Positions 10,573 through 39,585 of a stretch of 39,585 nt of DNA are shown here, piece after piece. The notes under the pieces are model-generated. The model made no database searches. It saw nothing but the letters and a program-made list of their open reading frames with translations, and was not told the DNA's origin. The position numbers and the translations under genes were made by a program. Origin of the DNA: Nitrospirota bacterium (GTDB lineage Bacteria; Nitrospirota; Thermodesulfovibrionia; UBA6902; DSMQ01); contig JACRGX010000095.1 in assembly GCA_016212185.1 (NCBI GenBank), forward strand, positions 1-39,585. The letters are read 5' to 3'. Numbering within the stretch: the stretch's first letter is position 1; each line of letters starts with the position of its first letter.

Positions 10573-10581
10573 AAGACTGTG

Positions 10582-10602
10582 ATGCGTTATGCGTAATGGG
10601 TA
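10582..10602. repeat. Heptad array ATGCGTT/ATGCGTA/ATGGGTA
   Basis: Three contiguous 7-bp units start at 10582, 10589 and 10596, each beginning ATG and differing in the other four bases. They lie just after proA. The surrounding gap (10573-10738) shows no other gene. Confidence 0.6.
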
Positions 10603-10738
10603 AAAAATAAAATCACATCATGATGGGGCTGTGAGACTTGATAGCCTTAGGCTATTAATGATAAAGGTAAAATTACCCTGTTAATCTTGCTCTTTTTAGA
10701 AACTCAACAAACTCGTCTGACTCCGTATTCTAACACGA

Positions 10739-12964: not shown

Positions 12965-13041
12965 AGTGAATAGTGAACAGTATTTAGTGAATAGGTTTTT
13001 ATAGTTTTTTGTCTTAACTGTTCACTGTTTACTGTTAACTG
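12965..13041. repeat. Two heptad arrays, mirrored
   Basis: Units of 7 bp start at 12965, 12972, 12979 and 12986 (AGTGAAT, AGTGAAC, AGTATTT, AGTGAAT). A second set at 13018, 13025 and 13032 (CTGTTCA, CTGTTTA, CTGTTAA) is largely the reverse complement of the first. The two halves could pair as a long hairpin in the nadD-rsfS transcript. Confidence 0.8.
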
Positions 13042-13060
13042 AGAGAAAGGGGGGAGACCC

Positions 13061-16674: not shown

Positions 16675-16718
16675 ATTTTCAAAAGACAGTTATAAGTGAA
16701 TAGCTAAAAAAATAGATA

Positions 16719-16828
16719 CAAGATTCATGATTCAAGATGCAAGTAAAAATTTAAGCTTTAAAACCTGAAGCTCAATATTATTCTTATGTCCGTCACTCTT
16801 AACTTTCAACTCTCAACTCTTAACTATT
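16719..16828. repeat. Two heptad arrays beside tRNA-Leu and a lipoprotein gene
   Basis: Units of 7 bp run from 16719 (CAAGATT, CATGATT, CAAGATG, then CAAG) and from 16801 (AACTTTC, AACTCTC, AACTCTT, AACTATT). The second array overlaps the last codons of the lipoprotein gene. A shorter AACTCTTAACTT tract overlaps the end of the flippase-like gene at 7257-7268. Confidence 0.7.
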
Positions 16829-22147: not shown

Positions 22148-22375
22148 TTGAAGGACGGCGAAATTGAAGAAATTCTGCAAAAGGAAAATGAAGAATACAA
22201 AAAGCTTGAGGAAGAGCACAAAGTCCTTAAACAAAGGCTGGCTGAGATTGATAAGATTAAGTATCTTACGCCCGAAGATGAAATAGAGAGAAAAAAGATA
22301 CAGAAGAAAAAACTGGCGCAAAAAGACCGCATGGCGGAGATTATAAGGGAATATAAGAAGAAAGTGAACGGTTGA
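22148..22375 (+). CDS. DUF465 (YdcH-like) small coiled-coil protein
   Basis: This 75-residue, highly charged, all-helical protein has the DUF465 pattern: a first helix (EEYKKLEEEHKVLKQRLAEID), a turn KIKYLTPEDEIERK, and a second helix of Lys-rich heptads. A TTG start at 22148 is chosen because a run of six G ends 7 nt upstream; translation from an earlier start would read through that ribosome site. The family is widespread, small and without settled function. A promoter-like TAAAAT lies at 22095-22100. It precedes ilvD on the same strand, separated by a heptad array. Confidence 0.85.
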   Translation: MKDGEIEEILQKENEEYKKLEEEHKVLKQRLAEIDKIKYLTPEDEIERKKIQKKKLAQKDRMAEIIREYKKKVNG

Positions 22376-22376
22376 T

Positions 22377-22470
22377 AGTGAACAGTGAACAGTTTTTTAA
22401 CTATTCACTAAATACTAACGACTGTTCACTGCCTTTTCTGCTATTCACTAAATACTATTCACTAACGACT
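22377..22470. repeat. Heptad array with mirrored halves before ilvD
   Basis: AGTGAAC units at 22377 and 22384 are followed by a T6 loop and ACT-units at 22400 (ACTATTC, ACTAAAT, ACTAACG, ACTGTTC). After a break the period resumes at 22441 (CTATTCA, CTAAATA, CTATTCA, CTAACGA). The array ends 6 nt before the ilvD ATG and leaves no Shine-Dalgarno. The AGT and ACT halves can fold into a hairpin. Confidence 0.85.
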
Positions 22471-27657: not shown

Positions 27658-27713
27658 AGTCGTTAGTGAATAGTATTCAGTAGCTGTTCACTGTTCACTG
27701 TTCACTGTTCACT
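27658..27713. repeat. Heptad array with strand switch before psd
   Basis: AGTCGTT, AGTGAAT, AGTATTC and AGTAGCT start at 27658, 27665, 27672 and 27679. From 27685 the unit TGTTCAC is repeated four times exactly. The orientation of the words flips at the AGCT near 27682 while the 7-bp phase is kept, so the two halves can pair. The array ends 7 nt before the psd ATG; no Shine-Dalgarno is left. Confidence 0.85.
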
Positions 27714-27719
27714 AAAATT

Positions 27720-28376
27720 ATGTTCAAATTCGCTCCTGAGGGTTATCCTTTCATCATTGGTTTCATCTTCATCACGCTTGTAGCCGCAGTTGTAAGGCTA
27801 CTGTGGCCGACTGCACTTTTCTTTGTCCTTACGCTGTTTATGTTCTATTTTTTCCGCGACCCTGAAAGGACAGTCCCACAAGGCAAGGGCTTATTCGTTT
27901 CTCCGGCAGACGGCAGAGTCATTTTAATTAAGGAAATTCATGGTGATATAATCCCCCCCGACCCCCCTTTGATAAAGGGGATCGAGGGGGATTATATCAA
28001 GATAAGCATTTTCATGTCGCCTTTTAATGTCCATGTAAACAGGGCGCCGTGCGACGGTGTTGTAAAGACAGTGAAGCACACGCCCGGCAGATTCTTTGCT
28101 GCGGACAAGGATGAGGCGTCCATGCTCAATGAAAATATTGCAATGGTCTTGGAAGGCAATGAAGGGAAGATACTTGTAAGGCAGGTGGCGGGTTTTATAG
28201 CAAGAAGGGCGGTGTGCAGGGTTAAGGCAGGCGATAGACTAAAAAGAGGCGAGAGATTTGGTATGATAAAATTCAGCTCAAGGCTTGATGTCTACTTGCC
28301 ATTAAATGCTAATATTAAGGTAAAATTGGGTGACAGGGTTAAGGCAGGGGAAAGCGTATTAGGCGTAATTGAATAA
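27720..28376 (+). CDS. psd: Phosphatidylserine decarboxylase proenzyme, short type
   Basis: Psd makes phosphatidylethanolamine from phosphatidylserine. The 218-residue proenzyme has two N-terminal membrane segments (about 8-27 and 29-45), RDPER (46-50), SPADGRV with the conserved Asp (61-67), and SIFMSPFNVHVNR with the catalytic His (96-108). The C-terminal site, usually FGSR in this family, reads F185-S186-S187-R188. S187 would become the pyruvoyl group, but the Gly before the cleaved bond is Ser (AGC). Residues 76-92 are encoded by a 54-bp palindrome in a variable loop. It precedes pssA, the enzyme supplying its substrate. Confidence 0.93.
   Translation: MFKFAPEGYPFIIGFIFITLVAAVVRLLWPTALFFVLTLFMFYFFRDPERTVPQGKGLFVSPADGRVILIKEIHGDIIPPDPPLIKGIEGDYIKISIFMSPFNVHVNRAPCDGVVKTVKHTPGRFFAADKDEASMLNENIAMVLEGNEGKILVRQVAGFIARRAVCRVKAGDRLKRGERFGMIKFSSRLDVYLPLNANIKVKLGDRVKAGESVLGVIE
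27945..27998. repeat. 54-bp palindromic element inside psd
   Basis: The arms 27945-27957 and 27986-27998 are perfectly complementary over 13 bp. Inside them CCCCTTT (27964-27970) pairs with AAAGGGG (27974-27980) around a GAT loop, and CGA/TCG add a third short stem. The element is 54 bp (18 codons), keeps the frame, and encodes the Pro/Ile/Gly-rich loop DIIPPDPPLIKGIEGD. C- and G-run hairpins of this look are usually intergenic repeats. Confidence 0.85.
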
Positions 28377-36306: not shown

Positions 36307-38100
36307 ATGAAATACAGAAGAAGAAAAAAACCGGATGTTGCACTGCTCTGGGACAGGTTCCCTGACGCAGATTATTCTCACAGCAGAAAAAGGGCTGTTG
36401 TGCTTAAGACAATAGTGTTTTTTGCGTTCTTTGTTGTATTTTTTAAGCTTTTTTATCTCATGGTTATCCAGCATAAGGATCTCTCAGAGAAGGCGGCGCA
36501 GCAGTATTCAAGGGCGGTAACATTAATGCCTCAGAGGGGGACTATTTATGACAGGTCCATGAGGGAGCTTGCCGTTAATATAGAAACCAATTCTTTATAT
36601 GCCGTGCCCTTAAAGGTGGATAACATCAGTTATGTATCTTCACGGCTTTCTCCGGTAGCTAAGGTTTCTGCAAATATTCTGAGCAGCAGGCTTGCAGACG
36701 GCAAAGGCAGGAAATCAAGTTTTATGTGGATTACAAGAAAAATGGACGAGGATATGTCACGCGGAGCGGAGAAAGTAAAAGATGAATTGAAAAATACAGT
36801 TGGCATTGTCACTGAGACAAAGCGGTATTATCCCAAGGGACAGCTTGCGGCGCATATTCTCGGGTATACGGATATTGATAATAAGGGGCTTGAAGGCATT
36901 GAACGCCGTTATGACAAATATATGAAGGGCCAAGTGAAAAAAGTTCAACTCGGCAGGGATGCCCACGGTTTAAACCTTGCCAATAACACAGAAGAAGGCA
37001 TCCCGGGCAACAGCCTCCTGCTTACTATTGACGAAGGACTTCAGCATATAGTTGAAAGGGAGCTGGCCGGCGCTGTTGAAATATGGCAGGCCGAAGGCGC
37101 GGTGGGAATAATGATGGACCCGGTGACAGGCGAAATCCTTGCCCTTGCCAACATGCCAACATATGACCTCAACATGCCGGCTGACGCGGAGGCCTCTGAA
37201 AGGCGCAACAGGGCAATTACTGATTCGTACGAGCCGGGTTCAACATTTAAAATAATTGCGGCTTCAGGGGTTATTGAAGAGGGGCTTGTCACGCCTGAAA
37301 GAAAATTTGACTGTTCCAAGGGCTATATAAATGTCAGCGGCGGAAAACCTATCCGCGATGTTCATAAAAACGGCGTGCTTACATTTAAAGAGTGCGTTCA
37401 AAAATCATCAAATGTCTGTCTGATACAGGCCGGCGCAATACTCGGCGAGAAAAAATTTTATAAATATGTGAAAGAATTCGGTTTCGGCGATAAAACAAAG
37501 ATAGACCTCATAGGAGAAGTGGGCGGGCTTTTAAAATCGCCTGAATCATGGTCCGGAAGGACGCTTGCCACCATATCAATCGGGCAGGAAATTGGGGTGA
37601 CCCCCTTGCAGATTTTAAGGGCTTATTCGGCAATTGCCAACGGCGGCAGACTGATGAAGCCGTATATTGTCTCTGAAGTAATTTCGCCTGACAGAAGGAT
37701 TATTGAAAAATCTTCTCCTAAGATTGAACGGCAGGTTGTTTCAGAAGAAACGGCAAAGACCATGAGGGATATTTTAAAGACGGTTGTTGAAGAAGGCGGC
37801 ACCGCGCAGAGGGCGTCCATAAAGGGCAATCTTGTAGCAGGGAAGACAGGCACTGCACAGATGATTGACCCCAAGACAGGGCGGTATTCCGCTTCTGATT
37901 ATGTGAGTTCCTTTGTCGGTTTTGTCCCTGCAGATAATCCGAGGATTTCACTTATCATTGTTGTATTCAAGCCGAGGGGCGCAAGGTACGGAGGCACAGT
38001 AGCCGCCCCGGTGTTCAGAAACATCATAGAGCAGACGCTTACATATCTGGATGTTCCTATGGAAAGGGATGAGAATAATATTACACTTGTCAGTAGATGA
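36307..38100 (+). CDS. ftsI: Septal peptidoglycan transpeptidase FtsI (PBP3)
   Basis: FtsI crosslinks septal peptidoglycan. The 597-residue class B PBP has a cytoplasmic tip, one membrane helix (about 34-54), the N-terminal dimerisation domain with RGTIYDR (77-83), and a transpeptidase domain with S312-T-F-K315 (SxxK), S367-S-N (SxN) and K513-T-G-T. All active-site motifs are intact. No PASTA domains follow. It sits between ftsL and murE, with a terminator hairpin just upstream and a 4-bp overlap (ATGA) with murE. Confidence 0.97.
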   Translation: MKYRRRKKPDVALLWDRFPDADYSHSRKRAVVLKTIVFFAFFVVFFKLFYLMVIQHKDLSEKAAQQYSRAVTLMPQRGTIYDRSMRELAVNIETNSLYAVPLKVDNISYVSSRLSPVAKVSANILSSRLADGKGRKSSFMWITRKMDEDMSRGAEKVKDELKNTVGIVTETKRYYPKGQLAAHILGYTDIDNKGLEGIERRYDKYMKGQVKKVQLGRDAHGLNLANNTEEGIPGNSLLLTIDEGLQHIVERELAGAVEIWQAEGAVGIMMDPVTGEILALANMPTYDLNMPADAEASERRNRAITDSYEPGSTFKIIAASGVIEEGLVTPERKFDCSKGYINVSGGKPIRDVHKNGVLTFKECVQKSSNVCLIQAGAILGEKKFYKYVKEFGFGDKTKIDLIGEVGGLLKSPESWSGRTLATISIGQEIGVTPLQILRAYSAIANGGRLMKPYIVSEVISPDRRIIEKSSPKIERQVVSEETAKTMRDILKTVVEEGGTAQRASIKGNLVAGKTGTAQMIDPKTGRYSASDYVSSFVGFVPADNPRISLIIVVFKPRGARYGGTVAAPVFRNIIEQTLTYLDVPMERDENNITLVSR

Positions 38101-39585
38101 CACTTAAGAGTCTTATAAAGGGAATAAAGGTGGCAAAGGTTACCGGCGATGTGAACTGTGAAATAAAGGGGATTGCGTATGACTCAAGGAATGTAAAAGA
38201 AAGATTTCTTTTTGTGGCTGTCAGGGGGTTTTCCACTGACGGCCACAGATATATAAATGACGCATTAAGCAGGGGGGCTGCTGGTGTGATAGTAGAAAAG
38301 GAAGCGGATTTATCCGGCATATGTTTGTCATGTGACGGCGCGGCGTTTGCAACTGTTGAAGACAGCAGGGATGCATTGGCGGCCGTATCGTCTGCGTTTT
38401 ACAGAGAACCTTCAAAGGGCTTATCCCTCATCGGAATTACAGGGACGAACGGGAAAACAACAACCAGTTATATAACGAAGAGCATACTTGATACATGGGG
38501 CAGGAAGGTTGGTCTTTTAGGGACCATACGTTATATAATAGGTAATAGAGTTGCTGCGGCAATTCATACGACTCCCGAGTCTTTAGACCTCCAGGGATAC
38601 CTGCGGGAAATGCTGGACAATAATGTTGAGTATGCTGTGCTTGAAGTGTCCTCCCACGCATTGACTCTTAAAAGGGTTGAAGGCTGTTCTTTTAAAGCGG
38701 CGGCGTTTACAAATTTTACGCAGGACCATCTGGATTTTCACGGCACTATGGAAGAGTATTTCACTGCCAAGGCAAAAATTTTTGATTACGTTGAAAATGG
38801 CGGTTATGCCGTGTTGAACTGGGATGACCCGGCGGTTAGAACCCTCACAGAGAAATTAAAGTGCAATGTCATAACCTGCGGTCTTCAGGAAGGGGCAATG
38901 ATAAGGGGGATGAATATAGACAAGGCTGAAGGAAGAAGGAAGAAGGATGAAAAATCCTTTTTTCATAATTCAACCCTCATAATTCAACCTTCTGATTTTA
39001 TTATTCAGACGCCGGGAGGTGAATTGAACATAAGTTCTCCTCTTGCAGGACGGAATAATGTTTATAACATCCTGATGTCTGTCGGGATTGCCTATGCACT
39101 TGGCGTCGGTGATGAGGCAATAATTAAGGGCCTAGGGGAAGTAAGTCCGGTTGAAGGCAGGTTTGAAAAGATTGATGCCGGGCAGAAATTCCTCTGTATA
39201 CTGGATTATGCGCATACCGAAGATGCGCTGAAGAGGCTTATTGAGGAGGCAAGGCTGATAACAAAGGGTAAAGTCATAACGGTTTTTGGATGCGGAGGCA
39301 ACAGGGACCGGGATAAAAGGCATAAGATGGGCGCGGTTGCAGCGGAGTTAAGCGATTTTGTGATAATTACATCCGACAATCCGAGGACAGAAAATCCGAT
39401 GTGGATTATTAACGATATAATTGCAGGCATTAAGAAGAGCAACTACATGATTTTGCCGGACAGGGCAGAGGCGATAATCCGGGCGGTATCAATGACGGAA
39501 CAAGGCGACACCCTGCTTGTTGCGGGTAAAGGGCATGAGGATTATCAGGAAATAAACGGCATACGCCGCCCTTTCAGCGACAGGG
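38097..39585 (+). CDS. murE: UDP-MurNAc-tripeptide synthetase MurE, partial (3' end outside window)
   Basis: MurE adds the third residue to the UDP-MurNAc dipeptide. Visible are the N-terminal YDSRNVKE segment, the ATP P-loop GITGTNGKTTT (113-123), HTTPESLDLQ, LEVSSHAL, TQDHLDFHG and SDNPRTENP (426-434). The DNPR motif indicates meso-diaminopimelate as the added amino acid. Residues about 276-300 are an extra Lys/Ser-rich stretch encoded by a heptad array (38928-38991). The ATG overlaps the ftsI stop. The frame is open to the window end, about 496 codons in. Confidence 0.95.
   Translation, partial: MTLKSLIKGIKVAKVTGDVNCEIKGIAYDSRNVKERFLFVAVRGFSTDGHRYINDALSRGAAGVIVEKEADLSGICLSCDGAAFATVEDSRDALAAVSSAFYREPSKGLSLIGITGTNGKTTTSYITKSILDTWGRKVGLLGTIRYIIGNRVAAAIHTTPESLDLQGYLREMLDNNVEYAVLEVSSHALTLKRVEGCSFKAAAFTNFTQDHLDFHGTMEEYFTAKAKIFDYVENGGYAVLNWDDPAVRTLTEKLKCNVITCGLQEGAMIRGMNIDKAEGRRKKDEKSFFHNSTLIIQPSDFIIQTPGGELNISSPLAGRNNVYNILMSVGIAYALGVGDEAIIKGLGEVSPVEGRFEKIDAGQKFLCILDYAHTEDALKRLIEEARLITKGKVITVFGCGGNRDRDKRHKMGAVAAELSDFVIITSDNPRTENPMWIINDIIAGIKKSNYMILPDRAEAIIRAVSMTEQGDTLLVAGKGHEDYQEINGIRRPFSDR
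38928..38991 (+). repeat. Heptad array inside the murE coding region
   Basis: 7-bp units start at 38928, 38935, 38942 and 38949 (GAAGGAA, GAAGGAA, GAAGGAT, GAAAAAT). After an 8-nt T-rich linker come 38964, 38971, 38978 and 38985 (CATAATT, CAACCCT, CATAATT, CAACCTT). The second half is 14 bp repeated almost exactly. The murE frame stays open through it. Confidence 0.8.

Follow-up and report, generated by a model that had tools for sequence, protein, structure and literature searches.

Repeats of 7 bp have already been noted as over-represented in bacterial genomes, and the papers found offer no accepted mechanism for this. Among described systems, the closest are the TAACTGA heptameric repeats of Beggiatoaceae and Cyanobacteria, which are carried by 25 ORFs in BOGUAY (PMC4679880), and the GGGNATC heptameric repeats of Xanthomonas and Nostoc, 83% of which are kept at orthologous sites between Xcc and Xac (PMC4692102); the heptanucleotide repeats of Calothrix are considered here as they are cited in the latter paper. 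Small dispersed elements of other kinds include the Rickettsia palindromic elements (RPE) and other in-frame MITEs, reviewed in PMC2229807, and the REP/BIME palindromes (PMC3733652).

The arrays described here, from an order of Nitrospirota, resemble the Beggiatoaceae and Xanthomonas heptamers in having 7-bp units at many sites, mostly intergenic, with some inverted pairs and occasional ORFs. Whereas in those systems a single unit dominates each genome or genus and mostly persists at orthologous sites, the Nitrospirota heptads have many units per genome, change at orthologous sites and lie inside loops of essential enzymes. As with RPE, small inverted repeats are found in frame within conserved genes and are probably near-neutral, but RPE form families of defined sequence (105-146 bp), whereas the present arrays are period-7 tandems of variable unit with no defined ends. 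REP/BIME palindromes are likewise small, dispersed and palindromic; unlike the Nitrospirota arrays, they contain no tandem heptads, and REPs are mainly extragenic (PMC3733652). A literature search of openly licensed papers found none on heptads in Nitrospirae, and none that reports units being replaced at one site in a protein loop. Heptad repeats are already known, as are in-frame palindromic elements, each on their own; the rewriting of units at one site in essential-gene loops, with a polarity of the arms, appears to be undescribed in that literature.

The window (the whole stretch of DNA analysed, 39,585 nucleotides) belongs to a genome of 103 contigs and 2.33 Mb, hereafter G000, whose MurE has its named relatives in Nitrospirota; its sister species is G001. 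The window ends within murE, whose product matches the NCBIfam model NF001126 (549 bits) and has the nucleotide-binding motif and catalytic core of the family. The features of this gene are as follows.

38097..39585, + strand: murE (UDP-MurNAc-tripeptide synthetase), frame intact, running off the window end.
38921..38992, + strand: convergent heptad element of 72 bp, in frame, delimited by blastn against its own genome.
38922..38949, + strand: purine-rich left arm, AAGGCTG AAGGAAG AAGGAAG AAGGATG (AAGGnnG heptads).
38950..38961, + strand: A/T-rich spacer separating the arms, the hairpin loop and upper stem in the predicted fold.
38962..38992, + strand: pyrimidine-rich, inverted right arm, TTCATAA TTCAACC CTCATAA TTCAACC TTC.
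38922..38990, + strand: loop predicted as disordered by AlphaFold (codons 276-298, pLDDT <50).

An earlier note, made from the sequence alone, had described a heptad array in frame inside murE, and the array is real. Besides the intact frame, TRF finds arrays of 7 bp (38928-38951) and of 14 bp (2x7; 38963-38989), and lag 7 is the best of lags 3-12 in the 87-nt loop (41/80 matches, against 36/84 at lag 3 and 33/83 at lag 4). The period-7 p-value is 0.001, the floor of the 1000-shuffle test, under base shuffles and codon shuffles alike. Tandem units of exactly 7 bp are present above chance, as in heptameric repeats (STRR/SSR), and codon or amino-acid low complexity is ruled out as the source of the period by the codon-shuffle null. 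The peptide predicted from the frame is about KAEGRRKKDEKSFFHNSTLIIQPS. The two arms form an imperfect inverted repeat with a predicted RNA fold of -19.5 kcal/mol (z -2.6 versus shuffles); inverted repeats able to form a hairpin are also found in the other two in-gene copies of the same genome (z -5.1 and -4.0).

The MurE loop is 29 residues long here, against 11 in nearly all MurEs outside the order, so that the "roughly 20" added residues of the earlier note were right. This comparison used 73 MurE proteins from named genomes across many phyla, one of which (L083) looks to fall within the order; period 7 was found at a p of about 0.01 in only one of the 73. An expansion conserved in length and sequence across distant MurEs was looked for and not found, and a conserved MurE feature was rejected, the loop having 11 residues in nearly all of these proteins. 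The placement in a loop is borne out by the AlphaFold model (mean pLDDT 78), in which residues 276-298 fall between strands 269-272 and 300-305, and the natural reading is a disordered extension of a hairpin turn. The heptad-encoded segment is probably near-neutral.

The MurE loop was then compared among 47 genomes of the order, most of the genomes compared being drafts and metagenome assemblies; two of the 47 MurEs lack the loop region. At p<0.01, 18 loops show period 7; of the other periods from 4 to 12, period 12 is found in two loops, periods 4 and 6 in one each and the rest in none. These p-values are nominal and the loop tests are not independent of phylogeny. Under the codon-shuffle null, period 7 is found in 17 of the 36 testable loops. 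Loop length ranges from 10 to 52 residues, and most loops of relatives have a single arm only. The sister species, whose MurE is 89% identical, has AGTCAGG heptads at the very point where G000 has AAGGATG, and the other units in the order include CAGACAA (about 10 copies), GTCAGAA, GTCAGCA, AGAAGAC, CGGAACA, GGCAAGA, GGGGCAA and GTTACAA. One genus has arrays in the MurE of 9 of its 10 species, with at least 6 different units. Since a different 7-base repeat stands at the same spot in close relatives, some process keeps rewriting the repeat. The MurE loop is a recurrent heptad site, at which site, period and frame are kept and the unit is replaced across species. Unit identity and loop length do vary among relatives, in support of the earlier note; its framing as an insertion into a single gene is weaker than same-site unit replacement across species.

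When the MurE tree is computed with the loop left out, array presence takes nine parsimony changes for 18 array-bearing tips, which are clustered. Units are more alike in close than in distant relatives (5.67/7 versus 4.21/7, permutation p=0.0006), a difference driven largely by one genus, the rank correlation over all distances not being significant. Between G035 and G036, one base differs per unit and the loop differs by 7 residues (3 units), and in the closest pairs (G000/G001 and G010/G011) the units are only 4/7 alike. Only 2 of the 18 units in MurE sense contain a cyclic stop codon, versus about 44% of the orientations of units pooled genome-wide, which supports a frame and stop filter. 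An assembly artefact was rejected as a general explanation: dozens of independent genomes have such arrays, their units compatible with the frame, and in G060 a GTCAGGA array stands on a contig no shorter than 2.29 Mb. As a separate observation, the MurEs of G003 (L054) and G042 (L214) lack the loop and, with it, conserved sequence as far as NVYN (about 45-50 residues), in frame in G003 and with split frames in G042; an assembly error or a pseudogene is possible.

The same pattern of one site, one period and different units is repeated in UvrA and in an MqnA-family protein (PF02621). The UvrA of G000 contains an in-frame element related to that of murE, 29 residues being absent at its place from the UvrA of the sister species; relatives have CAAGATG...CACTCGT, ATTCAAG, AAAACTC or CGTCACT heptads there, and period 7 is found in 10 of 20 testable UvrA loops. 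The MqnA-family protein has heptads in all four genomes with the family (4/4), with differing units. In G000, the murE element matches the copy in the mqnA-like gene (L002) at 79% identity along its full 72 bp, and the murE, mqnA and uvrA copies share one reading frame. Like RPE, the element sits in frame within conserved genes (murE, uvrA, mqnA) that also have orthologues without it; one conserved element sequence across copies is true only of the three G000 copies, units differing in relatives. Short in-frame heptad stretches are also found in G000 in DapF, RsmA, a molybdopterin oxidoreductase-like protein and TPR membrane proteins. Many paralogues of a TPR-containing membrane protein family of G000 (L007-L021) have heptads of CAACCTT type at one and the same position in the protein, and four loci of four genomes (L194, L242, L248, L184) have a common short coding core with different heptad arrays on both sides. 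The second example proposed in the earlier note, psd, did not stand: its in-frame insert at 27942-27999 (PPDPPLIKGIEGD) is a GC-rich palindrome with no heptad array, and the sister species has a different insert there. UvrA and MqnA are better second and third examples. Palindromes like that of psd were observed inside the MurE loops of G035, G036, G038 and G040 and in the MqnA of G002 and G003.

The architecture was also said to be that seen between genes, and intergenic arrays are indeed found in the window:

12996..13044, no strand assigned: intergenic heptad array of TTAACTG type, compared with the sister species.
27664..27713, no strand assigned: heptads between ilvC and psd, CTGTTCA; at this position the sister species carries heptads of AACGCTG type.
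16713-16828, 22375-22460 and 10575-10620: further intergenic heptad arrays, two of the three with a purine-left/pyrimidine-right arrangement.

At the array at 13014, the sister species has exactly 7 bp more (one unit) in an otherwise near-identical stretch, a one-unit change between congeners. The array near 22375 is almost unchanged in G001, and after 10572 GTGATGC heptads in the window stand against AAGGATG heptads in G001. Stasis, unit gain or loss, and replacement thus all occur at intergenic sites. Copy number varying between relatives (at 13014 and in MurE loop lengths) is shared with heptameric repeats; a dominant single unit kept at orthologous sites is not seen, copies being many and units per genome many.

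Genome-wide, about 40 places in G000 are related to the murE element (blastn), including three 72-bp-like copies. In 1.47 Mb of sampled stretches from the 47 genomes, 120 strict arrays have period 7, versus 18 at periods 5, 6 and 8-12 combined. Heptad density elsewhere in the genome averages 19.6 per 100 kb in genomes with a MurE array versus 4.9 in those without (Mann-Whitney p=0.0017, ignoring phylogeny). No heptad arrays were found in the sampled stretches of the three single-contig genomes of the order that were covered (G014, G015, G018), a caveat to the rejection of an assembly artefact. Among array pairs within 100 bp, 24 are purine-left/pyrimidine-right and 1 is the reverse. The arms of 28 such pairs are alike at 5.1 of 7 positions versus 4.05 by chance (p=0.0005) and are identical in 0/28, and a simple inverted repeat from one copying event was rejected on the latter ground. 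In a scan of the phylum, repeated GTCAGNA arrays were found in 45 of 296 genomes, a reversed control pattern being nearly absent.

The greater likeness of units in close relatives leads us to prefer, as the probable though far from certain origin, slippage-driven turnover of units with dispersal of copies, filtered by reading frame. The murE segment would be a single member of a class of heptad arrays that occurs genome-wide in the order. Units of 7 bp would be gained and lost through replication slippage or unequal recombination, and point variants would sweep through an array, so that the unit sequence shifts while period and site persist. The likeness among close relatives points to such descent with change within arrays, a base change spreading and units being gained or lost. 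The closely similar copies in three genes of G000 suggest that arrays spread from one site to another as well; an array that is locally common (AAGGATG...CAACCTT in G000) may reach other sites by insertion or conversion. Inside genes, the survivors would be frame-keeping, stop-avoiding variants in tolerant loops such as MurE 276-298, giving a longer, probably disordered, near-neutral segment. Drift alone poorly explains the 4/7 likeness of units in the closest pairs. Simple slippage leaves two things unaccounted for: a period of 7 and almost never of 5, 6, 8 or 9, and the purine-to-pyrimidine polarity of the arms.

A mobile element like a MITE or RPE, with heptad arms, that re-inserts at the same tolerant loops, the units being element families, is a less probable origin, though one worth serious consideration. 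It is supported by the near-identical 72-bp copies that three G000 genes hold in one frame, by the residues missing from the sister UvrA, by the inverted arms capable of forming a hairpin and by the wholesale unit difference in the closest pair. Against this, the units of the densest clade are linked by descent, the two arms of an element are in no case the same, and an unsystematic look showed neither defined ends nor target duplications, which are hard to define without fixed ends, nor a transposase.

That the arrays owe their form to a dedicated nucleoprotein or enzyme, which would recognise or write 7-bp units by a loose sequence grammar, with site, period and polarity under selection and the exact unit free, is improbable. 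It would fit the near-exclusive period, the 24:1 polarity, the likeness beyond chance between arms of one element, and the fact that units across MurE are more alike than random 7-mers (4.33 versus 3.77), but no candidate enzyme was identified, and occurrence in loops of unrelated enzymes suggests tolerance and not use. Last, it is very improbable that the longer MurE loop serves a function in the protein (e.g. as a binding surface), the heptad DNA being only its source: the few parsimony changes and the several clades keeping long loops without arrays speak for it, but the peptide sequences of relatives are unrelated, the loop is predicted to be disordered, species without the expansion occur throughout, and UvrA and MqnA behave likewise.

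With slippage-driven turnover and dispersal as the preferred reading, the period of seven and the polarity are where an ordinary account by slippage could give way to something new. It is rather doubtful, on present evidence, that an active rewriting process, specific to period 7 and polarity and not to the unit, continually replaces arrays at fixed sites across Nitrospirota, loops of essential proteins among them. The rules of period and polarity are sharp enough for testing candidate mechanisms. Orthologous protein loops are frame-constrained, tree-placed records of array birth, unit change and loss, a history of which intergenic copies give no such record, and they represent a route by which repeat DNA becomes new peptide segments in essential enzymes.
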